A stretch of 64,000 nt of DNA, taken from assembly GCF_002752655.1 (NCBI RefSeq), contig NZ_CP023737.1:1364001-1428000 (forward strand). Direction: 5' to 3'. The translations under genes and the position numbers were made by a program. The first letter of the stretch is position 1. The number at the start of each line of letters is the position of its first letter. This DNA comes from Methylosinus trichosporium OB3b (lineage in GTDB: Bacteria; Pseudomonadota; Alphaproteobacteria; Rhizobiales; Beijerinckiaceae). This document shows, piece by piece, positions 21,771 to 34,586 of the stretch. The notes under the pieces were generated by a model. That model saw only the letters and a program-made list of their open reading frames with translations. It was not told the DNA's origin and ran no database searches.

Positions 21771-22925
21771 TCAATCGATGATGGCGTGCGGCAAAAAGCG
21801 CGAGCGATCGGAGGTGACGAGCGCTGCATCCTCGCGCACGCCGAGGCCCGCCGGCGCGTCGCCGACGAGCCAGCAGCCGAGCACCGGACGCTTGCCGTCG
21901 AAATCGGGCAGCAGATGCAGCTCCTGGCGCACATGGCCTTCGGCGCCATAGGTCCCGCCCGTTTCTGCGAGGCGCGCGTCGCCGTCGACGAGCGCGATAT
22001 TGGCGCCTTCGCGCGAATAGAGCGGCTTGCGCGCATAGCGGCGCAGCTCCGCCGCGCGCCCATCACACTCGAAGAAGCAGGGCAGAAGATTTGGATGGCC
22101 CGGCGCCGCATCCCACAGCAGCGCGAGAAAGCCCTTGTTGGAAGCGACCGCTTTCCACGGCGGCTCGAGAAAATGCGTGGCGCGCATCGCCGGCGAGGAG
22201 CCGAATGCATCGGCGAACATCCATTCCCATGGATAGAGCTTGAACAGGCCTTCGATGCGCCGTCCCGAGCGATCGATGAAGACATCGCCGCGCAGGCCGA
22301 TGTCGCCCATGTCGAGCAGCGCCGTCTGCGAGCCGGCCTGCATCGCGCAATCGGCGAGATAGCGCAGCGTGCCGGCGTCCTCGACGCTGGCGCTCATGCA
22401 GGCGAGATGCACGAAGGCGCCATTGGCAATCTCGCGCCAGCGCGCGATCAGCCGCTCATGCAGCGAGTTGAACTGATCGGCGTCGCCGGGCAAACGCCCG
22501 CGCGCGATCATCTGTTCCAGCCAATGCCATTGCGCCACCGCCGATTCATAGAGGCTCGTCGGCGTGTCGGCGTTATATTCGAGCAGCTTCGGTGGACCCT
22601 TGCCGTCATAGGCGAAATCGAAACGCCCATAGAGCGACGGTTCGCGTCGCGCATGGGTCTCGGCGATGAGGCTCCAGGCGTGACGCGGAATGCGCAGTCT
22701 CTCGAGCAGCTCCTCGCTGGCGACGACGCGCGCGATCACCTCGTCGCACAGCGCCGACACATCGGAGGTCGCCTGCTCGAGATCATCCTCGATCTCGCGC
22801 ATCGAGAAAATATAAGCGGCGCTCTCGTCCCAATAGGGCGCGCCGTCGATATGGGCGAAGTGAAAGCCGATGCGCGCGGCGTGCTCGGCGAAATCGGGGC
22901 GCGGCGCGAAGGCGCGCCGCTTCAC
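21771..22925 (-). CDS. Glutathionylspermidine-synthase-like ATP-grasp protein
   Basis: The 384-residue protein matches the GSP_synth family (YjfC/YgiC): YWDESAAYIFSMREIEDDLE, PSLYGRFDFAYDG, LLEYNADTPTSLYESAVAQW, and the nucleotide-binding end YPWEWMFAD to KPLYSREGANI. E. coli YgiC and YjfC lack the amidase domain and their substrate is unresolved. The start overlaps the stop of the Ser/Gly-rich gene by four bases (ATGA). The arrangement with a DUF350 gene and a Ser/Gly-rich gene is like E. coli yjfLMC. The cluster may modify a cell-envelope or polyamine conjugate (inference). Confidence 0.88.
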   Translation of the reverse strand: MKRRAFAPRPDFAEHAARIGFHFAHIDGAPYWDESAAYIFSMREIEDDLEQATSDVSALCDEVIARVVASEELLERLRIPRHAWSLIAETHARREPSLYGRFDFAYDGKGPPKLLEYNADTPTSLYESAVAQWHWLEQMIARGRLPGDADQFNSLHERLIARWREIANGAFVHLACMSASVEDAGTLRYLADCAMQAGSQTALLDMGDIGLRGDVFIDRSGRRIEGLFKLYPWEWMFADAFGSSPAMRATHFLEPPWKAVASNKGFLALLWDAAPGHPNLLPCFFECDGRAAELRRYARKPLYSREGANIALVDGDARLAETGGTYGAEGHVRQELHLLPDFDGKRPVLGCWLVGDAPAGLGVREDAALVTSDRSRFLPHAIID

Positions 22926-23760: not shown

Positions 23761-24345
23761 TTAGCAACGCGAATCAATCGAAGGAAGCCCCTGCTCGCGC
23801 TCGGCCGGCGCGGCGCGGATCATGCGGACCCCCGCTTCGCCCTCCTGGCCCGGCGCTTCGACGAAACCGTGACGCGCATAGAGCGCGCGCGCCGGATTAT
23901 CGGCGAGCACGGTGAGAGCGCAGCGCAGGCCGCGCGCGTCGGCCGCCGCTTTCCACGCCTCCAGCGCCGCGCCGGCGACGCCGCGGCGGCGATGAGCGGG
24001 CGCGACCGCGAGATCGACGCAGAGGCTGCCGTCCGGCGCGCTCCAATCGATGATGACGCGCCCGATCGGCGCAGCGCCGGACTCGAAGATGCGCCGCATC
24101 GCCCCGGGATGGCCGTCACGGAACGCCGCCATGCGAATATCGGCCTGCTGCTCGAGCATTACGGGCGGCAGCAGGGCGGCGAGCGGATGATCGGCGAGGA
24201 ACAGAGCGCGCAGGAAGGGCGCGTCCTCCGGCGCCTCTGGCCGCACGGTGAGCCATGGCGCCCGCGTCGCGACGAAGCCGTCGAAAGCCGCCGCGGCGGC
24301 GGCCGGGTCGAGCAGCGAGTCTTTGGTCTCGGAGTCGTTGGTCAT
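23761..24345 (-). CDS. GNAT-family N-acetyltransferase
   Basis: The 194-residue protein has the GNAT acetyl-CoA-binding motif DLAVAPAHRRRGVAGAALEAW and the C-terminal strand/helix ALTVLADNPARALYARHGF. Substrate is unknown. The start at 24345 (MTNDSETKDSL) is chosen because upstream sequence in the same frame is a shadow of the divergent gene. It precedes the DUF350 gene by 31 bases on the same strand. The N-terminal 25 residues are extra compared with minimal GNATs. Confidence 0.83.
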   Translation of the reverse strand: MTNDSETKDSLLDPAAAAAAFDGFVATRAPWLTVRPEAPEDAPFLRALFLADHPLAALLPPVMLEQQADIRMAAFRDGHPGAMRRIFESGAAPIGRVIIDWSAPDGSLCVDLAVAPAHRRRGVAGAALEAWKAAADARGLRCALTVLADNPARALYARHGFVEAPGQEGEAGVRMIRAAPAEREQGLPSIDSRC

Positions 24346-24384
24346 GGCTTGTCGCGACTTTTCCGAGAGGCTAGAATCACATTC

Positions 24385-24702
24385 ATGTCGATACATGATA
24401 TTGCGCCACGACCGATGACATTGGACGAATTCGTCCCCATGATCGGTCAGATTCTTCTCGCCGACTGCAATCCCAGCCCCGCCGCGCTCGAGCTGGTGAG
24501 CGCGAAGCCCTTGACCAATCACGGGCTGACGGCGCGTCCGCCGTTCCACCTCGTTTTCCGCAGCGCGCCGGAGGTGCTGCTGCTCCCCGGCGTCTACGCA
24601 ATGCGTTGCGGCGAATGGGGACCCGACGCCATCTATATCGAGCAGATGGCGTCGCTCGGCTTCGACGCGCCCGGTCATTACTATCAGGCCGTGTTCAACT
24701 GA
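24385..24702 (+). CDS. DUF6916-like protein
   Basis: The 105-residue protein starts MSIHDIAPRPMTLDEFVPMI and has LELVSAKPL, PPFHLVFRSAPEVLLLPGVY and, near the end, IYIEQMASLGFDAPGHYYQA followed by VFN. I recall this pattern (TLDDF...FSLLFRG...YEAVFN) from DUF6916 proteins, which tend to accompany phage-tail-collar (MdpB-like) proteins. Such a protein is encoded at 31437-32033. The gene is divergent from the acetyltransferase gene and may be the left end of the accessory island. Its function is unknown. Confidence 0.65.
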   Translation: MSIHDIAPRPMTLDEFVPMIGQILLADCNPSPAALELVSAKPLTNHGLTARPPFHLVFRSAPEVLLLPGVYAMRCGEWGPDAIYIEQMASLGFDAPGHYYQAVFN

Positions 24703-24892: not shown

Positions 24893-24944
24893 CCTTCGCT
24901 CGATCGCCCTGCGCGGCGTGACGCGGCAGACGAAAGGTCGGCGC

Positions 24945-26156
24945 ATGCGATGGGTCGAGGTCGAGCGCCCGGAGACGAAGCGGATCTCGCGAGCGACCGC
25001 GACCAAGGTGCTGCGCGCCGCCGTGGCGACGGCGCCCGATCCGCTCCCTCTGCTCGAGCGGCTCGGCGCCGCGCTCATGGACGAGGGCGGCCATCGCGAG
25101 GCCATCGCCGCCTTCGACGCGCGGGCAAAGGCCGATCCCGCGCGGTTCACATCCTGGGGACGGCTGGCGCAATGCCATAACGAGATTGGCGAGCCGGCGA
25201 CGGCGCTGGCGATCTGCGACAGGGCCGGCGGCCATGGCGCCCGGGTGGCGCGGGCGCGCGGCGCCGCGCTGGAGGCGCTGGGCCGGCGGGACGAAGCGCT
25301 GGAAAGCTATCGCCGCGCCTTCGGCGAGGACGAGACCGACGCGATCGCGCTGGACGCTGTTCTGCGCCTCCTCTGCCGCGCGGCGGACGCCGCGCCGCTG
25401 CTCGCCTTCTGCGACGCCCTGCCCGCGACGGCGCGCTTCGACGTGCAGAAAAGGGCGTTCCGCGCGCTCGCCTGCAGCCGGCTGGGCCGGCGGGAGGAGG
25501 CGTCGGCGCTGATCGATCCCGAGCGTCATGTGATGTCCTTCCGCTTCGATCCGGCCTGCGAGAGCGGCGGCGTCGACGCGTTCAACGCGCGGCTGGCCGG
25601 CTGGCTGCTGGCCAACACCGGAGCGACGCCGACGCCGCGCCGCGATTGCGTGCATGATTACGCGCTGAGACATATGCGCGCCCCGCTGCTGCAGGAATTG
25701 CGCGCCTTCTTCCGCCAGTCGTTCGACGCCTATATCGCCGCTCTGCCGGCGCTCGGCCTCGATCGGCTGATGCCGCCGCCGGTTGCGGGCGACATCGCCG
25801 ACGGGGCCACTTTTCTGCGCAACGAGGCGCGCAATGGCGAGCATGTTCATCGCGGCCGTTATTTGACGGGCGTCTATTATGTCCACACGCCGCAGGCGAT
25901 CCGGACAAATGTCGAGCGGCGCGGCCGGCTCGCCGTGGGCCGGTGCCATGAGACCGCCGGCGGCCATGAGCCGGTCTGGGGCGCCCGCTACATCGCGCCC
26001 GAGCCCGGAATGTTCGTCGTGTTCCCCGCCCATATGTTCCATGACGTCGTTCCGACGCGCTGCAGCGAATGGCGCATCGCCATCGTCGCGGATGTCGAGC
26101 CCGCCCCCATTGGTGGGCGGGAGCTCCCAATGCGATATGTCCAAGAGCGAGCCTGA
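24945..26156 (+). CDS. TPR / 2OG-Fe(II) oxygenase-like protein, copy 1
   Basis: The 403-residue protein has an N-terminal TPR-like helical region (ERLGAALMDEGGHREAIAAF, FTSWGRLAQCHNEIGEPATA) and a C-terminal double-stranded beta-helix domain of the 2OG-FeII_Oxy_5 type. Likely iron ligands are His in NGEHVHRGRYLTGVYYV and the His in FPAHMFHDVVPTR, with the 2-oxoglutarate Arg nearby. Start at 24945 matches that of the paralogue at 26181. The stop codon and last residues (about QERA) lie inside an R1 repeat, so the C-terminus was probably changed by its insertion. Substrate unknown; peptide hydroxylation is possible given the neighbours. Confidence 0.8.
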   Translation: MRWVEVERPETKRISRATATKVLRAAVATAPDPLPLLERLGAALMDEGGHREAIAAFDARAKADPARFTSWGRLAQCHNEIGEPATALAICDRAGGHGARVARARGAALEALGRRDEALESYRRAFGEDETDAIALDAVLRLLCRAADAAPLLAFCDALPATARFDVQKRAFRALACSRLGRREEASALIDPERHVMSFRFDPACESGGVDAFNARLAGWLLANTGATPTPRRDCVHDYALRHMRAPLLQELRAFFRQSFDAYIAALPALGLDRLMPPPVAGDIADGATFLRNEARNGEHVHRGRYLTGVYYVHTPQAIRTNVERRGRLAVGRCHETAGGHEPVWGARYIAPEPGMFVVFPAHMFHDVVPTRCSEWRIAIVADVEPAPIGGRELPMRYVQERA

Positions 26157-26180: not shown

Positions 26181-27356
26181 ATGCAGTGGATGGAGATCGA
26201 GCCCCCGAAAGCGCGTCGCATTTCGCGACGCGCGGCGACAAAGGTCCTGCGCGCCGCCGTCGACGCCGCGGCCGACCGGCCGGCGCTGCGCGAGCGGCTC
26301 GGCGCGGCGCTGATGGACGAGGGTCGGCATGGCGAGGCCATCGCCGCCTTGCGCGCGAGCGCGGCGGCGGAGCCGAGCGGCTTCACCTCATGGGGGCGGC
26401 TGGCGCAATGCCATCTCGCGATCGGCGAGCCGGCGGCGGCGCTCGACATCTGCGAGCGGGCGCAGGGGCGCGGCGTCGCGCGGGCGCGCGGCGGAGCGCT
26501 GGAGGCGCTCGGGCGGCCCGAGGACGCGCTGAGAGAATATGCGCGCGCCTTCGCCGAGGACGACGCCGACGCATTGGCGCTGGAGGCGGCGCTGCGCCTC
26601 CTCAGCCACGCCTCCGACGCCGAGCCGCTGCTGGCATTTTGCGCGGCGCTGCCGGCGACGCGGCGCTTCGACGCTCAGCGCCTCGCCTTCCGGGCGCTCG
26701 CCTATAGCCGGCTCGGCCGGACGCAGGAGGCGCGCGCCCTGATCGACCCCGATCGTCATGTCATGCTCTTCCGCTTCGTGCCGCCGGCGGCGCTCGGCGC
26801 CGTCGATCTGTTCAACAGGCGCCTCGCCGCCTTTTTGCTGGCGAATATGGGCCAGACGCCGACGCCGCGGCCCGATTGCGTGATCGACGGCGGCCTTCCG
26901 CAAAGGCGCGATCCGCTCCTGCTGGCGCTGCGCGAGTTCTTTCGCCGCTCCTTCGACGGCTATATCGCCGCAATGCCGGCGCTCGGCCTTCACGGGCCGG
27001 CGCCCGCGGCGGGACGCATCGAGGAAGTGGTCGTCTTCCTGCGCGGCGCGGGCCGCAATGGCGAGCATGTCCATCCGGGCGGCTATGTGTCCGGCGTCTA
27101 TTACGTCGAGGCGCCCTCGAGCGTCCTCGCGGGCTCTGATCTGCGCGGCCGTCTCGCGCTCGGCCAATGCGAGAGGCTGACGGGCGGCCACCGGCCGGCG
27201 TGGAGCGTCCGCCATGTCGCGCCCGAGCCGGGGACGCTCGTCGTCTTCCCCTCCCATATGTTCCACGACGTCGTTCCGACGCGCAGCGAGGCGCTGCGCA
27301 TCGCCATCGGCCTCGACGTTCGGCCCTGTGGAGAAGAAAGCGAGGAGCCGACATGA
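26181..27356 (+). CDS. TPR / 2OG-Fe(II) oxygenase-like protein, copy 2
   Basis: This 391-residue protein is a close tandem paralogue of the preceding gene (both start M-x-W-x-E-x-E and share FTSWGRLAQCH). It has the same TPR-like N-half and beta-helix C-half with NGEHVHPGGYVSGVYYVEAP and FPSHMFHDVVPTR, where the His residues are likely Fe ligands. It keeps a natural C-terminus (IAIGLDVRPCGEESEEPT), unlike copy 1. Its stop overlaps the next ATG by four bases, so it is translationally coupled to the PhyH-type gene. Confidence 0.83.
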   Translation: MQWMEIEPPKARRISRRAATKVLRAAVDAAADRPALRERLGAALMDEGRHGEAIAALRASAAAEPSGFTSWGRLAQCHLAIGEPAAALDICERAQGRGVARARGGALEALGRPEDALREYARAFAEDDADALALEAALRLLSHASDAEPLLAFCAALPATRRFDAQRLAFRALAYSRLGRTQEARALIDPDRHVMLFRFVPPAALGAVDLFNRRLAAFLLANMGQTPTPRPDCVIDGGLPQRRDPLLLALREFFRRSFDGYIAAMPALGLHGPAPAAGRIEEVVVFLRGAGRNGEHVHPGGYVSGVYYVEAPSSVLAGSDLRGRLALGQCERLTGGHRPAWSVRHVAPEPGTLVVFPSHMFHDVVPTRSEALRIAIGLDVRPCGEESEEPT

Positions 27357-28027
27357 ACGATCCTGCATCGGAGGCCGCGACCGCCGCCGAGGCCCTCGAC
27401 CGGGACGGCTTCGCGCTGCTGCGCGGCGCCATTCCCGCGCCATTGCTCGCGCCGCTGCGCGCCGCCTTCGAGGCGGGGGCGCGCGCCTCGTCGGAGTGGC
27501 CGGTCCCGCGCGGCGCCGACTGGCGCCATTCCATGCTCGATCTCGATCCCGCCGTCGCCGCCACCTGCCGTCTGCCGATCCTGCTCGCCGCGGCTCATCA
27601 TGTCTTGCAGGCTCCCTTCGCGCTCGTCCAGGTCGAAGGGCGCGAGCCGCGCGCCGGCGGCGGCGGACAGGCGCTGCACCGCGACGCGCCGGCGGCCGCA
27701 GTAGTGGAGATCGTCTCCGCACTGGCCTTTCTCGATTCGTTCGGGCCGCCCAACGGAGCGACGCGCTTCGCGCCCGGCACGCATCGCGGCGCTGGTCTGG
27801 CGCTGCGCGAGGAGGATGGCCCGCCCACCACCATCCTCGAGGGCGAGGCCGGCGACATCGTCGTGCTCGATGTGAATGTGCTGCATGGCGCGACGCGCAA
27901 CATCGCCGGCGCTCCGCGTCGATCGCTCTTGATCACCTACGCCGTCGAGACCGCGCGCGCGAAATTCGACGCGACCCGCGCCATGCGCGCGGTGCGTATG
28001 GCGCCGAGCGAGATCTTCGGCGCGTGA
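27353..28027 (+). CDS. Phytanoyl-CoA dioxygenase (PhyH)-like protein
   Basis: The 224-residue protein matches the PhyH-type 2OG-Fe(II) oxygenases: LDRDGFALLRGAIP at the start, QALHRDAPAA (likely H-x-D iron ligands), ALAFLDSFGPPNGATRFAPGTH and GDIVVLDVNVLHGATRNIAG (third ligand His), followed by an Arg (APRRSLLITYA) for 2-oxoglutarate. Substrate is unknown. It overlaps the previous oxygenase gene and is convergent with the asparagine-synthetase-like gene, with only two bases between their stops. Confidence 0.83.
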   Translation: MNDPASEAATAAEALDRDGFALLRGAIPAPLLAPLRAAFEAGARASSEWPVPRGADWRHSMLDLDPAVAATCRLPILLAAAHHVLQAPFALVQVEGREPRAGGGGQALHRDAPAAAVVEIVSALAFLDSFGPPNGATRFAPGTHRGAGLALREEDGPPTTILEGEAGDIVVLDVNVLHGATRNIAGAPRRSLLITYAVETARAKFDATRAMRAVRMAPSEIFGA

Positions 28028-28029
28028 GC

Positions 28030-29793
28030 TCACTCCAGAGCGTCGGCGCCCTCGTTCCAGGCGAGCAGGAATTCGGCGACATTGGCGGTGATCTGAATGC
28101 GGAACGCCTCGGCGACCGGCGGGCGGGGCTCGGCGTCGAGACGCGCGAGCCGCTGGTCGAGCCAGTCGAGATCGAGCCATTCGCCGATTCCCGCGCGGCG
28201 GAAGGCGAGCAGGCGCGTCCGCGCCTCCGGCGCCTCCGCGGCGAGGCGCGGATAGAAATCCGGACAGAACGCCAGGCCCGACCGGCGCAGACGGATCGAA
28301 TCGGGAAGCCGTCCGTCGAGCAGCGCGCGCGCCGGGGCGCGGGATGCGCCGCCATGGTTGGAGTAGCGCGCTGGAAAGCCCGAGAAGAGCTGCAGCAGCC
28401 GCTGGTCGCGAAAGGGTGGGACAATTCGCGCGGCGCCGATCATCGTCTCGCTCGGGCTGTTGTCGAGCTTCTCGACGCCCTGGCAATAGCCCCAGCGGCC
28501 GCGCGGATCGAAGGCCGGCTCGGCGCTCCAGGGGCGGCGCCATGTCTCCTCGAGATGCGACGGCAGGCCGGAAAGCAGCCCCGGCGCCAGCCGCACATTG
28601 AAGCCATCCTCGGGCCAGTGTGGAGCTCCGCGACGCGGATCGACATGATCGCGCAGCCGCCGCAGAGCGCGGCGCAAGCGATAGGCCGGCGTCGCCAAGG
28701 GGAAGGCGGCGGTGAATGTATATTCGCCGCCCGAGCCGTCGATCAGCTCCGCATGGCCGGCGGCGCCGCTCGCTACGAAAAAGGCTTCGTATAAATGATG
28801 CCAGGTCGCGCGGGTCGGATCATTGCGCGCGAGACAATGGCGGCGCGACGGCCGGAACAGCCGCGCCTGAGGCGATGGGCGCACCAGAGTGAGCGGCAGG
28901 CCGAGACGATCGGCGACGATGCGCGCGAAGGGCGTCTCGTCGGGCAGGCCGCTTTCCTCGGGCGCCGCCGAGGTCAGCAGCGTCAGCCTCTGCCCCGCGG
29001 CGCGCTCCGCCGCCGCCACGACGGCGAGCGTCGAGGAATCGAGGCCGCCGCTGAGCATGACCGCCAGCCCGCCGTGACGCGCGAGACGCTGGCGCAGGAT
29101 CTGGCGCAGCAATGTCTCGGCCTCGGCGAGCGCGTCCGCGAAGGAGCCGGCGAAAGGCGGAGCCGCCACTGGAGCGCCGATGCGACGCAGCTGCGTCCCA
29201 CCCGCATCGAAGGTCACGCAGGCGCCAGGCGGCAGGGCCTCCACCCCGCGCAGCAGGCTGCGGGTGTTGAACGGACGCACCGCGCGATGGCGGGCCATGG
29301 TCGCCGCAAAGCCCTCCGGGTCGATGTCGTTCGGCATCCAGGGAAGGCGGCGCAGCGCATGGATGGAGGGCGCGAGGACGACGCTCGCGCCCTTGCGCGC
29401 ATGGAGCACCGGATCACGCAGCGCCCGCGAGGTCATCAGCGCGAGACGCCGCTCCTCGGCGCGCCAGACGAGGCAGGACCATTCGCCGAGCATATGCGCG
29501 GGCGCCTCGGCGCCGAAGCGCGCATGAGCGGCCGCCGCCAGAAGCGCGAAGCCGGAGTCGACCGGCAGGCCGAGGCGGACGGCGAGCTCCTGCGGCTCAT
29601 CGAGATAGCCGAGCAATATGCAGCAGCATCCGCCCGCATCAGCGCGATGCACGGCGCGAGGATCGACGCGGTCCACGCCGGCGGCGACAAAGGAGCCCGT
29701 CGCGCGCGTCAGACCGAGAGCAGCGCAATCCGCGGCCTCCACAGGCCCGCCGTCGAGGCGGACGACGCCGTATAATCCGCTCTTCAAATCCAT
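28030..29793 (-). CDS. Asparagine synthetase-like macrolactam cyclase candidate
   Basis: The 587-residue protein has the AsnB layout: N-terminal amidotransferase-like half and C-terminal synthetase half with the PP-loop SGGLDSS (residues 248-254), followed by LTSAAPEESGLPDETPFAR. The N-terminus is MDLKSGLYGVVRLDGG, with no Cys at position 2, so it cannot use glutamine as a normal AsnB does. Lasso-peptide cyclases (McjC type) are ATP-dependent AsnB homologues that also lack this glutaminase function. The PqqD-like, HPr-kinase-like and precursor-like genes lie 1.4-3.5 kb upstream on the same strand. True asparagine synthetase is the alternative. Confidence 0.75.
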   Translation of the reverse strand: MDLKSGLYGVVRLDGGPVEAADCAALGLTRATGSFVAAGVDRVDPRAVHRADAGGCCCILLGYLDEPQELAVRLGLPVDSGFALLAAAAHARFGAEAPAHMLGEWSCLVWRAEERRLALMTSRALRDPVLHARKGASVVLAPSIHALRRLPWMPNDIDPEGFAATMARHRAVRPFNTRSLLRGVEALPPGACVTFDAGGTQLRRIGAPVAAPPFAGSFADALAEAETLLRQILRQRLARHGGLAVMLSGGLDSSTLAVVAAAERAAGQRLTLLTSAAPEESGLPDETPFARIVADRLGLPLTLVRPSPQARLFRPSRRHCLARNDPTRATWHHLYEAFFVASGAAGHAELIDGSGGEYTFTAAFPLATPAYRLRRALRRLRDHVDPRRGAPHWPEDGFNVRLAPGLLSGLPSHLEETWRRPWSAEPAFDPRGRWGYCQGVEKLDNSPSETMIGAARIVPPFRDQRLLQLFSGFPARYSNHGGASRAPARALLDGRLPDSIRLRRSGLAFCPDFYPRLAAEAPEARTRLLAFRRAGIGEWLDLDWLDQRLARLDAEPRPPVAEAFRIQITANVAEFLLAWNEGADALE

Positions 29794-29889
29794 GTCCTCG
29801 ATCTTGACTCGGTCCTGCGTTGGTTTAATCGCGACGCCGTGCCGACGCCCTCCAGCGTTCCGAATCCGGATTGACAGCTTCCGAGCAAC

Positions 29890-30035
29890 AGCGTCATGGC
29901 CACGCTTGTCGCGGCCATCCACGCCGTGACATCGCGACGCGCGGGAAAAAGAGGCGGTGATGTTCGGCTCATGATCCAATATTGCGAGCCGTCGCGGCGT
30001 GGATGGCCGCGACAAGCGCGGCCATGACGCTGGAA
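29890..30035. repeat. R4-family long inverted repeat
   Basis: CAGCGTCATGGCCACGCTTG then TCGCGGCCATCCACGCCG is mirrored by GCGTGGATGGCCGCGACAAG then CGCGGCCATGACGCTGG. The arms are about 45 bases with a 60-base loop. It lies between the divergent cyclase-like and propeller-like genes, and its right end may supply the start codon of the latter. Confidence 0.8.
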
Positions 30036-30998
30036 ACTCTCTGCTTGTTAACCCAAATTCGGAGCCCTGAGACGCCCTCACCCCTCTCCGAGCGGAAATT
30101 GCGTCACGCGCTGGCCCGCGCGGCCTATGGCCGACGCGAGATTCGCGTGGCTGATCCCGTGGTCGCCGGCCATGATTGCCTGATCTCGACCCGCCTCGGG
30201 CTGTTCGCCGGACGACGGGAGGGCGTCAAGCGGCTGTTGTGGGGCTATTTCTTCGGCGTCGCCCGCCACGAGGACGCGATCTATCTGTTCGAGGCCTGCG
30301 ACGATCCCGCCGGCTCGAGCGACATGGGCCGCATCCTGCGCTTTCATCTGCACGACGGCCGGCTCAGCGATTTCGTCGTGCTCGCCGAGGGGCTGCACAA
30401 TCAATGTCATCAGATCGCGGTGATCGACGATCTCCTGTGCGTCGTCGACACCGCGCGCCAGTCGATCGTGCGGCTGCGGCTCGACGGCGGCCTCCACGAT
30501 ATTCGCCAGCCGATCGAGGTGGGGCCGCGGCCGGGCGGCGGCGGCGCCTATCGCCACATCAACTCGATCGCCGAGGTCGGCGAGCGCATTGCTCTGATGC
30601 TGCACAATGGCCCGGTTCTCCCCGAGGAGCCGAGCGAGCTCGCCTGGCTCGACCGCGATTTCAATCTGCTCTCGCGTCAGCCGCTGCCGGGGCGTCATTG
30701 TCACGACATTCTGCCCCTGCCGGACGGGTCGATCTGGCATTGCGGGTCGTTCGCGGGCGAGATCATCGATGCGAATGGCGCGCGTATAAAAATTTCCGAG
30801 CGAATGACGCGCGGGCTGATCGCTGTTCCCGGCGGCTTCATCGTCGGCGCGTCCTTGTTCGGACCGCGATCGGATCGAGATATTCTCTCGGGCTCGATCA
30901 TCTATCTCGATCGATCCTTTCGCCGTCTCGTCGAGGCCCCCTGCCCGGGGGCGCCGACCGATCTGCTGGCGCTCTGCCGCTCGAGCCCAATGGTCTGA
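30024..30998 (+). CDS. Propeller-like protein of unknown function
   Basis: About 320 residues, soluble and without a signal peptide. Repeating strand patterns (AIYLFEACDDPAGSSDMGRI, HQIAVIDDLLCVVDTARQSI, HDILPLPDGSIWHCGSFAGE, LIAVPGGFIVGASLFGPRSD) suggest a beta-propeller of the NHL / SMP-30 / DUF4915 sort. Several conserved-looking His and Asp residues (NQCHQI, AYRHINS, RHCHDI) could bind metal. The start is uncertain: ATG 30024 lies in the R4 repeat, and the real start may be a later codon near 30095. It is divergent from the cyclase-like gene within the putative RiPP island. Confidence 0.6.
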   Translation: MTLETLCLLTQIRSPETPSPLSERKLRHALARAAYGRREIRVADPVVAGHDCLISTRLGLFAGRREGVKRLLWGYFFGVARHEDAIYLFEACDDPAGSSDMGRILRFHLHDGRLSDFVVLAEGLHNQCHQIAVIDDLLCVVDTARQSIVRLRLDGGLHDIRQPIEVGPRPGGGGAYRHINSIAEVGERIALMLHNGPVLPEEPSELAWLDRDFNLLSRQPLPGRHCHDILPLPDGSIWHCGSFAGEIIDANGARIKISERMTRGLIAVPGGFIVGASLFGPRSDRDILSGSIIYLDRSFRRLVEAPCPGAPTDLLALCRSSPMV

Positions 30999-31002
30999 TT
31001 CA

Positions 31003-31090
31003 GTCGATTTGACAGGGCTGAAAGAGCGAGCCTGAAGGCTCACGGTCCAGGCGCTCGGACCGTGAGCCTTCAGGCTCGCTCTCGAGGCCC
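31003..31090. repeat. R1 palindromic repeat, inverted pair
   Basis: GCCTGAAGGCTCACGGTCC and GGACCGTGAGCCTTCAGGC are an inverted pair with a compensating change in both arms (GTGAG/CTCAC instead of GCGAG/CTCGC), which suggests selection for the hairpin or gene conversion. The left end is CAGTCGATTTGACAGGGC. Confidence 0.8.
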
Positions 31091-31099
31091 ATTATTTTC

Positions 31100-31143
31100 G
31101 CTGACGCAGACAACTGGATTGCTAGGCTCCGCTCGCAATGTCG
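31100..31143. repeat. R2 repeat fragment
   Basis: CTGACGCAGACAACTGGATT is followed by GCTAGGCTCCGCTCGCAATG. This is a decayed R2 half. It lies just past the 3' end of the precursor-like ORF. Confidence 0.5.
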
Positions 31144-31171
31144 GCGGGGACTGTCCAACCGGGGAGCCGGG

Positions 31172-31342
31172 TCAGGATTGGGTGCAGTCGGGGGCGTTCC
31201 CGGGATTGCCATCGAGGCCCACTCCGAACAAAAACTCGGTCTGCTCGATGGCCAGCGCCTCGATTTCAGGCTCCACCCAAATCTTGCGAGACGTCGAAGC
31301 CGGCGTGGAGACCGGAGGCTCTGATTCGGGCGTTGCGGTCAT
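31172..31342 (-). CDS. Candidate lasso-type RiPP precursor peptide (56 aa)
   Basis: A 56-codon ORF, start ATG 31342, with GGAGAGG about 7 bases upstream. The N-terminal 18 residues are Pro/Ser/Thr-rich. Residues 20-32 read KIWVEPEIEALAI, with the spacing W22-x2-P25-x-I27 that PqqD-like RRE proteins bind in lasso leaders. Thr35 follows 13 residues after Trp22, as the conserved penultimate leader Thr does in lasso precursors. If cleavage is after residue 36, the core is FLFGVGLDGNPGNAPDCTQS, in which Asp44 is position 8, suitable for an 8-residue macrolactam ring. The last residue is Ser56, the type of residue phosphorylated by HPr-kinase-like enzymes in paeninodin-type clusters. A Phe at core position 1 is unusual. 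A second possible ring acceptor is Asp52 with Gly45. Confidence 0.65.
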   Translation of the reverse strand: MTATPESEPPVSTPASTSRKIWVEPEIEALAIEQTEFLFGVGLDGNPGNAPDCTQS

Positions 31343-31436
31343 AGGTCAGCCTCTCCATATTCGCGGCCATGAATGGACGGACGGGAGCCGACTCGTCGCG
31401 CCGCGGCTCCCGCCCCCCGCTTATATCCGCCCGCGC

Positions 31437-32033
31437 TCAGCTGCGAGACGGGAAAATACCAGTCAACGTTATGACAAAGGTGATGGCGAGATAGGGCTGC
31501 AGCGTCGAGATCGGCACATTGCCGCCGGTGGCGCCCACGGTGACCGTGCCGGCGACATTGAGCCCTCCGAGCGGAATAGTCGTGGCGGTGCCCGCAGGAC
31601 AGTAGATCGCCGGCGCGGAGCCGGTCTGATTGAGGTCGACCGCATGGCCGAGCACTGTTCCATTGTCCGGGGTCTGCAGCGAGGCCTTGGGCTGGACGCC
31701 CGACGCATTGAAGCTCGAGGTCGAGGTGAAGGTGGCGCTGTGATTATGGGCCGGCAGATTCGTCGACAGCAGCGTCTCGGTCTCGACGCCGGCCTGCTGA
31801 CCGATCACGTAATTCGACAATCCCGGACCCTGGCCCCAATGAACGGGGGTGCGGCCGCGCAGGTCCGGCAGAGCGAAATTATTGACGCCATTGCCGCCGA
31901 AGGTGGTGCCCAGCAGCGCGAACAGCGCGGAGTTCTGCTGGATGGGCACGAGCTGGCCGTTGCAGAGCGCGGTGTGCGCGGGCGCGAAATTCCAACCGCC
32001 CTGGATGATCTGGCCTAAGTAGAGTTCCGCCAT
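31437..32033 (-). CDS. Phage tail collar domain (MdpB/microcystin-dependent-like) protein
   Basis: The 198-residue protein has the collar-domain pattern: YLGQIIQGGWNFAPAHTALC NGQLVPIQQN as start, then SALFALLGTTFGGNGVNNFA and LPDLRGRTPVHWGQGPG. A Ser/Thr/Gly-rich region with AHNHSATFTS follows, ending QPYLAITFVITLTGIFPSRS. Such proteins resemble tail-fibre tips and occur outside phages in many genomes with an unknown role. ATG 32033 is preceded by GGGAGGAG about 10 bases upstream; a GTG at 32042 is less likely. It lies between pqqD-like and precursor-like genes on the same strand. Confidence 0.85.
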   Translation of the reverse strand: MAELYLGQIIQGGWNFAPAHTALCNGQLVPIQQNSALFALLGTTFGGNGVNNFALPDLRGRTPVHWGQGPGLSNYVIGQQAGVETETLLSTNLPAHNHSATFTSTSSFNASGVQPKASLQTPDNGTVLGHAVDLNQTGSAPAIYCPAGTATTIPLGGLNVAGTVTVGATGGNVPISTLQPYLAITFVITLTGIFPSRS

Positions 32034-32138: not shown

Positions 32139-32414
32139 TCAGGCCGCGACCGGCTGCGCGACATTGAGCGTCTGCATTTTCTGCAACAGGCGCACGACGG
32201 CCGCGCGACATTCATCGGGCGGCACGTCGAAGAGCTCGACCAGCTTCGATGCGATCTCGGATGCGCTCGCCGGAGCGTCCAGAGCGTTCCAGACCGCATA
32301 GGCGGTGCTGTTCAGCGCGACATAGAAGCCGGTGTTCACATTGATCATGACGAGGCTGTCCTCGATCTCGGATCCGACCCAATGATCGTCGCGGCGCCAA
32401 ATCGTCTCGCTCAT
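32139..32414 (-). CDS. PqqD-family RiPP recognition element protein
   Basis: The 91-residue protein has the PqqD fold pattern: GSEIEDSLVMINVNTGFYVA LNSTAYAVWNAL as the beta strands, then helices with SEIASKLVELFDVPPDECRA and LLQKMQTLNV. Stand-alone PqqD proteins bind the leader of RiPP precursors and present them to the modifying enzymes (PqqD and the B1 protein of lasso clusters). The ATG overlaps the stop of the HPr-kinase-like gene by four bases. Its likely ligand is the precursor-like peptide at 31172-31342 (inference). Confidence 0.88.
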   Translation of the reverse strand: MSETIWRRDDHWVGSEIEDSLVMINVNTGFYVALNSTAYAVWNALDAPASASEIASKLVELFDVPPDECRAAVVRLLQKMQTLNVAQPVAA

Positions 32415-33265
32415 AATTCAATTCTCTCGTCGATCGACGCGCGCGCGAGCCGTTCGGCCCTGCCGGCGCGATCCATCATGACATTGCGCCGTCCCCAGGC
32501 ATAGACCGGGACGGAGCGCGCGACCTCGACGCTGTGGAGAAGCGCGGCTGCCTGCAGCCCCATCAGCGCCGGCGCATTCGGGCGATGACGATGCGCGAGC
32601 AGGACTTCGAGCGCCTTGCGCTGGGAGAGACGCATCGGCTCTTCGTCAACGGCGTCATCGAGCACGATCAGCGCGCCGAGGCGCGCCGCGTCGATCATGC
32701 GATCAGCGGCGAGAGGATGGAACCGGCGCGCCTGCGAGCCTTCGCGCAGGAACAGGCCTCCCGGCAGGCCGCAGACGGTCGCCGCGCCGGAACCTGGAAT
32801 GATCGCTATGCTGTCATCGGCGAGCAGCGCCGCGCCGTCCGCGACCAGCGCCGCCGCCAGAGTGGATTTGCCGGCGCCCGAACGCCCCAGAATTCCCAGC
32901 GCCGGCCCGCCCGGCCGCGCGCAGACCGCCGCGGCGTGCAGCACCAGCCGGCCCTGCATCCACAGCGACGCGGGCAGCGCGCCGGCGATGAGCCGCTCGC
33001 CGATCTCCTCCGTTTTTGCGTGAGCGCTCGGCGTCACCTCTATGGCCGACGCCGAGCAGAGATAGCTCGCGATCCCCGGAACGGCGAGCCGCAGCGCATC
33101 GCCTTCGCGGGAAAAGCCGGCGGGGGCTGCGAAAGCGTCCTCCGCCGCGACGTCGCAGAAGATGACGACGCCGGGAGCGGTCGCTTCATCGCCGACCCAA
33201 TCGCGCGCGCCGGGAACCGGCGCCTCGCTGGCGATGATCTGTCCGAAACCGAAGAGCCGCCGCAT
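32411..33265 (-). CDS. HPr kinase-like protein
   Basis: The C-terminal two-thirds of this 284-residue protein match the HPr(Ser) kinase C-terminal domain: LVLHAAAVCARPGG, Walker A GRSGAGKST (about residue 128), and LLADDSIAI as the Asp-containing catalytic strand. The N-terminal regulatory domain of true HPrK is absent. Kinases of this kind in lasso clusters (PadeK, ThcoK) phosphorylate the C-terminal Ser of the precursor. The position here, six bases after the oxygenase gene and overlapping pqqD-like, supports such a role (inference). Start may be ATG 33265 or 33271. Confidence 0.8.
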   Translation of the reverse strand: MRRLFGFGQIIASEAPVPGARDWVGDEATAPGVVIFCDVAAEDAFAAPAGFSREGDALRLAVPGIASYLCSASAIEVTPSAHAKTEEIGERLIAGALPASLWMQGRLVLHAAAVCARPGGPALGILGRSGAGKSTLAAALVADGAALLADDSIAIIPGSGAATVCGLPGGLFLREGSQARRFHPLAADRMIDAARLGALIVLDDAVDEEPMRLSQRKALEVLLAHRHRPNAPALMGLQAAALLHSVEVARSVPVYAWGRRNVMMDRAGRAERLARASIDERIEL

Positions 33266-33277
33266 CGCCAACGCCCG

Positions 33278-34474
33278 TCACGCCGGCCGGAAGTCGAAAG
33301 CGACGCAGATGCGGCGGCCGCTGGCGCGATGCGGATAGGTGCGGTGATAGCAATGGGCGGGGAACAGCATCATCAGCCCCGGCTCCGGACGAACGAGGCC
33401 CGAGCCGAAGGCGCGGGCGGCCTCCTCGCCGACCAGATCCTCCGGAAGGCCGAAGGCGATATGGCCGCGTTCGTCGCGAGCTTCGGCGATTCCCGGCGGC
33501 GTCGCGACATAATACACGCCGCTCAGCCAGCCGTGCTGATGGACGTGCCAGGTTTCGTAGCCGTCCTCGTCGGTGATCACGCACCAGCTGTGCAGGACCA
33601 GCTCGGGCGGGCGGACGCGGATCATCGCATGATCGACGGCGGCGGCGAGCGTCGCGACGTGGCGCTCGGCGATCGTCGCTATGCGGGCGAGAAGCTGCTG
33701 CGCCAGCGGCGCGAAATGCGAGATCGTGCTGTCGATGCGCCAGGTCCGATGCGAGGCCGATCCATAACGTTCGAGATGCAGCCCGGGATGGGCGACGAGC
33801 TCGGCGGCGAGCGCCGCGTCGAACGCCTGCCGACTCGCCCAGCCGGGAGGGGGCGACAGGCGCGAGACCAGCTGCAGACGCTCCCGCGCCTCCGCCTCGC
33901 GCGCCTCCTCGATCCGGCCGAGCCGCGCGAGCGCCAGCACCTGCGCCGCCAGCACCCGCGAATGACCGACGCCCTGCGCGACGAGAGCCTCGGCCAGCGC
34001 CAGGGCCGCGCCGGGCTCCCGCGTGGAGAAGCACAGCGCGGCGAGACGTTTGCACGCGTCCTTGTTGTGCGGATCGAGGGCCAGCGCCTCTCGGAGCGTG
34101 CGCTCGGCGCGGACGTCGCCGAGCCGCATCTCGGCCTTTCCCCGGTCGGCGAGCGCGGCGGCGCGGCGGCGATCCGCATCGGCGAGCGCGAAAGCGCAAT
34201 CGGCGGAGACGATCGCCTCGCGCGTCGCCTCATGGGTCTCGAGCGCCAGCAACGCATTGGTCCGCAGCATCGCCTCCCCGAAATCGAGGTCCGCGGCCCC
34301 GGCCAGAAGCGCGACGGTCTCCGAATACCGATCGCAGGCGTTCAGCAGCCAGGCGAGACGCCGGCGCAGCTCGCGCGAGGCGGCGTTGCGCGCATGAGCG
34401 GCGCGCGTGAGCTCCAGCTCCTGGCGCGCGGTCAAGCGCTTCGCCGTCTCGAGTCGAATGGTGGTCGCGGTCAT
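33278..34474 (-). CDS. TPR / 2OG-Fe(II) oxygenase-like protein, copy 3
   Basis: The 398-residue protein starts MTATTIRLETAKRL at 34474; the open frame extends to 34636 but looks like a shadow there. The N-half has TPR-like helices (AAALADRGKAEMRLGDVRAE, TLREALALDPHNKDACKRLA). The C-half is a 2OG-Fe(II) beta-helix with ETWHVHQHGWLSGVYYVATP and LFPAHCYHRTYPHRASGRR, holding the likely His ligands and Arg. It is more distant from copies 1 and 2 than they are from each other. It is the first gene of the minus-strand group with HPrK-like, PqqD-like, collar and precursor genes. Confidence 0.83.
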   Translation of the reverse strand: MTATTIRLETAKRLTARQELELTRAAHARNAASRELRRRLAWLLNACDRYSETVALLAGAADLDFGEAMLRTNALLALETHEATREAIVSADCAFALADADRRRAAALADRGKAEMRLGDVRAERTLREALALDPHNKDACKRLAALCFSTREPGAALALAEALVAQGVGHSRVLAAQVLALARLGRIEEAREAEARERLQLVSRLSPPPGWASRQAFDAALAAELVAHPGLHLERYGSASHRTWRIDSTISHFAPLAQQLLARIATIAERHVATLAAAVDHAMIRVRPPELVLHSWCVITDEDGYETWHVHQHGWLSGVYYVATPPGIAEARDERGHIAFGLPEDLVGEEAARAFGSGLVRPEPGLMMLFPAHCYHRTYPHRASGRRICVAFDFRPA

Positions 34475-34586
34475 GAGCGCTCCGCCGGCGCGAGAAAATG
34501 AAGACATCGAACGATTGAGTCTAGCACGCGCCGCGCATCGGCGCCTCCCCCGGCTTCGGCGAAGCGGCCGGCGAGCGAAGAGGCCG

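Follow-up and report, generated by a model that had tools for sequence, protein, structure and literature searches.

The window (the whole 64-kb stretch of DNA that was analysed) contains a short minus-strand ORF, hereafter precursor A, among genes for PqqD-like, AsnB-like, kinase and oxygenase proteins. The features of this neighbourhood, in order of position, are the following; L004, L005, L024, L025 and L026 denote the corresponding loci in other genomes.

23761..24345, minus strand: GNAT-like acetyltransferase, a possible accessory gene (read from the sequence; a 45% homologue lies beside the L026 cyclase)
24385..24702, plus strand: DUF6916 gene (PF21880, 58.2 bits; 48% in L026)
24918..26156, plus strand: third TPR + 2OG-Fe(II) oxygenase-like protein (tblastn matches to the TPR-2OG genes of relatives)
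26181..27356, plus strand: second TPR + 2OG-Fe(II) oxygenase (PF13759, 59.4 bits)
27344..28027, plus strand: PhyH-type 2OG dioxygenase, a possible tailoring gene (PF05721, 59 bits)
28030..29793, minus strand: AsnB-like, lasso-cyclase-like protein C, 587 aa (PF00733, 66 bits; ATP motif SGGLDSS; no N-terminal Cys)
30024..30998, plus strand: beta-propeller protein T3032 (adjoins the cyclase gene in 6 of 6 loci)
31172..31342, minus strand: precursor peptide A, 56 aa (leader 1-36; predicted core 37-56, FLFGVGLDGNPGNAPDCTQS)
31350..31356, minus strand: GGAGAGG, Shine-Dalgarno-like, 7 nt ahead of the ATG of A
31437..32033, minus strand: phage-tail-collar-domain protein, between A and B1 (PF07484, 82.6 bits)
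32139..32414, minus strand: PqqD-like B1 (RiPP recognition element), 91 aa (PF05402, 60.7 bits, cut-off 23.4)
32411..33271, minus strand: HPr-kinase-like precursor kinase K (H112; K135 in GRSGAGKS 129-136; D152-D153)
33278..34477, minus strand: TPR + 2OG-Fe(II) oxygenase (PF13759, 74.4 bits; homologues in relatives 39-52%)

Transcription on the minus strand thus runs from the TPR-2OG oxygenase (34477-33278) through the HPrK-like kinase (33271-32411), B1 (32414-32139) and the collar protein (32033-31437) to A (31342-31172). Past the plus-strand gene T3032 (30024-30998) comes the AsnB-like cyclase (29793-28030), again on the minus strand, and the plus strand also carries the PhyH oxygenase and two further TPR-2OG genes.

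The existence of a 56-residue minus-strand ORF at 31172-31342 was confirmed by its translation, MTATPESEPPVSTPASTSRKIWVEPEIEALAIEQTEFLFGVGLDGNPGNAPDCTQS followed by a stop, in which W22, P25, I27, T35, F37 and D44 all stand where the initial annotation had placed them. Its start region reads GGAGAGG-CTGACCT-ATG, bearing out the good ribosome binding site that had been claimed. Bacterial gene callers usually work with a minimum ORF length below 57 codons, so the further remark that A is too short for ordinary gene calling was not quite right. In a two-strand scan of the 64 kb, the pattern sought was a start codon followed by [WYF]-x2-P-x-[LIVMF]-x7-T, an acidic residue 8-10 residues past the Thr and a stop 5-20 residues further on, and A was the sole ORF with this leader/core motif. 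Dinucleotide shuffling of the whole window gave at least one such ORF in 10 of 200 runs; the motif alone has a chance level of about 5% per 64 kb, before counting the nearness of A to the PqqD gene (0.8 kb) and the AsnB-like gene (1.4 kb). A plus-strand ORF (31062-32018) overlaps both A and the collar gene on the opposite strand.

The best NCBIfam model for the window AsnB is the lasso cyclase NF033535, at 59.2 bits against a cut-off of 525, and for the L026 AsnB the same model ranks second to asparagine synthase. For B1 the best model is the lasso PqqD NF033536 (45.8 bits, cut-off 80). Family models score under their cut-offs for kinase K, in which the His, Lys and Asp-Asp of lasso kinases are present in the right order (positions read from the sequence). 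Homologues of T3032 occur in all five other loci (45-49% identity); its fold matches are common to many propellers and point to no function. In another alphaproteobacterial genus (L028, L029 and L030) a T3032-like propeller gene adjoins an HPrK-like gene, and the 3.8 kb searched in each of these loci gave no match to the window AsnB at E 0.1.

TPR-2OG genes lie near the cyclase in five of the six loci, and in a second locus of the sixth genome. At E 1e-5 we found no PhyH gene near the cyclases of relatives and a single homologue elsewhere, in another locus (L079) of genome G356. At the same threshold the collar protein has a 50% homologue in L026 and none in the other stretches searched. The GNAT-like, DUF6916 and tail-collar genes are found together near the cyclase both in the window (23761-24702 and 31437-32033) and in L026 (11371-13173), at 45-50% identity, and the association of a collar protein with a lasso locus is unexplained. 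The window also holds a glutathionylspermidine-synthase-like ATP-grasp gene (21771-22925; PF03738, 456 bits). T3032 and A converge, and between their ends lies a terminator-like palindrome, GAGCGAGCCTGAAGGCTCACGGTCC...GGACCGTGAGCCTTCAGGCTCGCTC (31024-31081), whose 15-base end recurs at 1394, 26145, 36384 and 60282 and may be a dispersed repeat, and a long imperfect inverted repeat, AGCGTCATGGCC[A/G]CGCTTGTCGCGGCCATCCACGCC (29889-30035), was seen by eye between the divergent starts of the cyclase and T3032.

The A/cyclase family is rare in the genomes searched. Among 150 relatives, in each of which the best eight candidates were scored, the window cyclase was matched at E<=1e-30 in one only, its own genome (G000). 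A scan of contigs with AsnB, which picks up close relatives only and yields fewer loci than the genome search, found two loci, in two Sphingomonas MAGs; in the sphingomonad family of the first MAG the cyclase is present in 4 of 397 genomes, that MAG included. Overall, five other genomes carry it, with 39-46% identity to the window protein. Because the other 149 of the 150 relatives lack a cyclase match at E<=1e-30, G000 has probably acquired the cluster. A plasmid origin was looked for by comparing the window AsnB with 72,556 plasmid records, where one weak match (33% covered) was obtained and no such origin was found. G000 itself (5.18 Mb, 4 contigs) has two genes of the methane/ammonia monooxygenase A family (PF02461) with equal scores, which makes its host a probable methane oxidiser.

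Each of the five other cyclase loci has a short ORF homologous to A at most about 4 kb from the cyclase. The initial annotation had staked its proposal on conservation of A beside the neighbouring genes and on an unbroken frame: a homologue stands near AsnB in 5 of 5 other genomes, and A is present and intact in 6 of 6 loci that carry the AsnB/T3032 gene pair. The window precursor alone detects its counterparts by tblastn at E 8e-10 in L024, 1.7e-6 in L025 and 1.5e-4 to 7e-4 in L026, L005 and L004. Invariant in the six-sequence alignment are M1, W22, P25, L30, T35, G42, D44, D52, C53 and S56, that is, T35 at position -2 and, in core numbering, G6, D8, D16, C17 and S20. The predicted cores are:

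Window: FLFGVGLDGNPGNAPDCTQS
L004: ALPNRGADVGGNPYADCQRS
L005: ALPNRGSDVGGNPYVDCQRS
L024: QLSNLGADVGGNAAPDCQRS
L025: ADPGLGTDVRGNPFPDCQLS
L026: ASPLRGGDGATRYADCTRS

The first core residue is Ala in four precursors, Gln in one and Phe in the window, so that the Phe noted earlier as rare is unusual in its own family too. A model built from the precursor alignment matched 4 of the 397 sphingomonad-family genomes at E<=7e-23, the same four that have AsnB; these genomes (or their sequences) are inside the model, and the result therefore speaks for its specificity and for absence elsewhere rather than for independent presence. Eleven further genomes of the 397 scored E 0.003-0.046, some of them with an internal stop. 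Between L004 and L005, 10 of 13 codon differences in A are synonymous and 3 nonsynonymous (binomial P 1.3e-4, on the assumption that three quarters of random changes are nonsynonymous), and the ORF is 90% identical in a setting where the flanks have drifted further (76% and 64%). A is conserved as a protein and kept with the cyclase. In genome G411 the cluster (L024 3574-7381 and 14903-17014) includes a family-41 glycosyltransferase with TPR, a NodU-like carbamoyltransferase, a second kinase and a PF14907 nucleotidyltransferase, and is a candidate for a heavily tailored lasso peptide.

On these features we consider it likely that A gives rise to a kinase-type (paeninodin-like) lasso peptide, the ring, the threading, the phosphate and the partnership with a B2 protease being predicted, and the lasso-type proposal of the initial annotation is supported. 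The leader has the lasso spacing claimed for it, W22-x2-P25-x-I27...T35 (aromatic-x2-P-x-[ILV] with Thr at -2), of which W, P and T are the same in all six precursors. With the core start set by the Thr(-2) rule, an Asp falls at core position 8 in all six precursors, within the 7-9 range in which an Asp or Glu is expected. A separate PqqD-like B1 is clear at PF05402 (60.7 against 23.4) and lies under the lasso-specific cut-off of NF033536; the AsnB-like protein next to A matches PF00733, and its best model, NF033535, stays at 59.2 bits of the 525 required, so that it is a putative lasso cyclase. The C-terminal Ser of kinase-type lasso peptides is present in 6 of 6 precursors, and K is HPrK-like with the His-Lys-Asp-Asp set (H112, K135, D152-D153). 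An unmodified lasso peptide made without the kinase was dropped on account of this invariant terminal Ser and the kinase residues.

Against a lasso product stand the AsnB and PqqD scores, far below the NCBIfam lasso cut-offs, and the first residue, Phe1, which is bulky and atypical. The paeninodin precursor model NF033524 gave no match to the window precursor (P0001) at E<=10; run against five precursors, it scored 24.2 bits for L026 and 19.2 for L025 (E 2e-5 and 7e-4; cut-off 27) and did not match the rest. The precursors of the window, L004 and L024 match no lasso precursor model in NCBIfam. In our reading A works like a kinase-type lasso precursor, its formal membership being open where the curated models are not reached.

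No B2 was found in the 64-kb window. G000 has one match to PF13471, at G000:C1:3534833, 2.1 Mb from the cluster, and this gene passes the NCBIfam lasso B2 model NF033537 (76.3 bits, cut-off 33). We found neither AsnB nor PqqD near it; directly upstream lies a gene for a siderophore-type TonB receptor (G000:C1:3532200-3535200, L002 6204-9196; TIGR01783 over its cut-off), whereas no TonB receptor was recognised in the listed ORFs that surround the B2s of G150 and G151, the genomes with the cyclases closest to that of G000, a difference that counts against the link. The initial annotation was silent on the distant B2 and its absence here, as it was on the invariant terminal Ser, the 2OG oxygenases and the beta-propeller.

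The other genomes show several arrangements of B2. A single B2, with no AsnB match nearby, is present in the genome of L004 and in that of L005, in the former on another contig than the cyclase (C118 against C142) and in the latter on the same contig about 320 kb off. In G411 a B2-family gene adjoins the cyclase. In G356 the pathway is split: A, C and T3032 lie at 2.03 Mb, and a TPR-2OG gene, two kinases, B1, a methyltransferase (57% identical to one in the L005 cluster), an ABC protein and a B2 lie at 2.34 Mb; of the three B2s of this genome, only the one at 2.34 Mb is without an AsnB within 1 kb. The cluster contig of G216 is only 7.2 kb long, and B2 linkage is not readable there.

Compared with 12 other B2s, the G000 protein scores highest with the lone B2s of G150 and G151 (128 and 118 bits; 45% identity over 154-155 aa); the next score is 64 bits, and the B2 of G007, of the same genus, scores 33. 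These pairwise scores, on which the comparison rests, cover all 13 sequences; a tree of 10 of them, three having been left out by a motif filter, was mostly unresolved, which weighs against the link. Three of the 60 genomes round G000 have a B2, G000 being one of the three. In the sphingomonad family 63 of 149 genomes possess a PF13471 gene, which exceeds the cut-off in 61 of them, so mere presence says little there. The case for the distant B2 working with the cluster of A is circumstantial. G000 has a second HprK-PqqD-AsnB triad at 3.87 Mb (G000:C1:3868000-3872300, L075), with no B2 beside it and no precursor of A's motif in the 19.9 kb read, and this triad could also use the G000 B2.

These findings bear on other explanations. 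A could be a RiPP precursor for the same enzymes whose product is no lasso, AsnB making another amide (an unthreaded macrolactam or a side-chain amide) and the product being mainly a phosphorylated, hydroxylated linear or ring peptide. The low AsnB and PqqD scores, the dominance of tailoring genes at the locus and the position of the only B2 outside the cluster, in G000 as in the L004 and L005 genomes, would all fit this; but Thr(-2) and Asp8 are invariant, a B2-family gene stands beside the L024 cyclase, B2 occurs together with B1 and K in G356, and the lasso cyclase is the best NCBIfam model for the window AsnB (second for that of L026), and we judge a product of this kind unlikely. Less probable still is that the pathway is dead or incomplete in G000, the cluster having come without a working B2, the B2 at 3.53 Mb serving another system and A being a relic or awaiting a foreign protease. 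The window without a B2 and the second triad are what one would then expect, yet the frame of A is intact, L004 and L005 likewise have no neighbouring B2 while their precursors show synonymous bias, and the lone B2 of G000 is closest to the lone B2s of those two genomes. That A is a chance ORF of a GC-rich genome, for which the motif-bearing ORFs of the shuffled windows could be cited, has a negligible probability and was dropped, since coincidence would not place homologues next to these genes in five further genomes, and the synonymous bias between L004 and L005 also speaks against it.

If A is a kinase-type lasso precursor, its maturation may be pictured as follows. The PqqD-like B1 would bind the W-x2-P-x-I leader, and the HPrK-like kinase would phosphorylate the invariant C-terminal Ser. 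At least one TPR-2OG oxygenase would hydroxylate a tail residue, perhaps the invariant Asp16 beside Cys17. The B2 protease encoded 2.1 Mb away would cut after Glu36, with Thr at -2, and the AsnB-like cyclase would link the Asp8 side chain with the Phe1 amine, so that a ring of 8 residues encircles the tail. The TPR-2OG oxygenases and the beta-propeller are probably further parts of the pathway, T3032 being a conserved partner. Computed monoisotopic masses of the predicted core are 2007.900 for the linear peptide, 1989.889 once cyclised ([M+2H]2+ 995.952) and 2069.855 once cyclised and phosphorylated ([M+2H]2+ 1035.935), with 15.995 more for each hydroxylation.

Several known systems share parts of this plan. 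Extracts of two papers (PMC9266682, PMC8498205) describe, for paeninodin-type pathways, an HPrK-like kinase with His-Lys-Asp-Asp whose target is the C-terminal Ser while the precursor is linear; the proteobacterial SyanK is described as doing likewise. As far as these extracts go, paeninodin and SyanA-SyanK (Sphingobium yanoikuyae) have in common with the window the H-K-D-D kinase, the separate B1, the C-terminal Ser and the leader W-x2-P-x-I...T-x. Among our precursors those of L025 and L026 match the paeninodin model weakly; the window differs from paeninodin and SyanA in a B2 away from the cyclase, in the added TPR-2OG oxygenases and beta-propeller, in the core G6-x-D8...D-C-x-x-S and in Phe1. 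SyanA was compared by its description in the available text only, and may belong to the window precursor's own family.

Canucin A, according to the accessible part of PMC9266682, undergoes Fe/2OG hydroxylation of a tail Asp and, like the window, has 2OG oxygenase genes in its cluster and a tail Asp available; the window oxygenases, in contrast, combine TPR with PF13759, and hydroxylation here is predicted. Metanodin, in the extracts of PMC12670498, is proteobacterial like A, has an atypical residue 1 (Asn1, against Phe1 in the window) and was overlooked as a precursor by automatic mining; the word kinase is absent from the text of that paper, an extract of which gives Gly, Cys, Ser and Ala as the first residues observed. 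The Bradymonas bsf cluster, as far as the portion of PMC10368454 at hand describes it, resembles the window in coming from a Gram-negative bacterium and in having B1, kinase and C as discrete proteins, but its kinase BsfK phosphorylates Ser3, it has Ile at -2, and its B2 and an ABC transporter lie inside the cluster. A peptidyl arginine deiminase encoded outside its lasso cluster, reported in the extract of PMC8498205, is a precedent for unlinked tailoring. Among other lasso peptides, fusilassin has Trp1 as its first residue. A literature search of ranked extracts, with subscription papers mostly outside it, returned nothing on the A peptide or on an unlinked lasso B2; in the methanotroph search the term lasso peptide occurred in none of the papers listed (15 of 828), a ranking that favoured methanotroph papers, and this says little on novelty.

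A very doubtful extension is that the dispersed lasso pathway makes a metallophore, in which an Asp16-Cys17-x-x-Ser20 tail, hydroxylated and phosphorylated by the TPR-2OG and HPrK enzymes, would bind metal on a knotted scaffold and the siderophore-type TonB receptor upstream of B2 would re-import it; if true, lasso peptides would gain a new function, here in a probable methanotroph. Taken as the precursor of a kinase-type lasso peptide, A would be a lasso-type candidate from such a host. With its homologues A makes up a small precursor family open to testing, marked by G6-x-D8...D-C-x-x-S and by an unusual residue at the start of the ring, and an unlinked peptidase, a beta-propeller and TPR-2OG enzymes would set its system apart. 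Should the unlinked B2 indeed belong to this pathway, genome mining that demands a neighbouring B2 will overlook the family, and the pathway works partly in trans, from a distant site in the genome.
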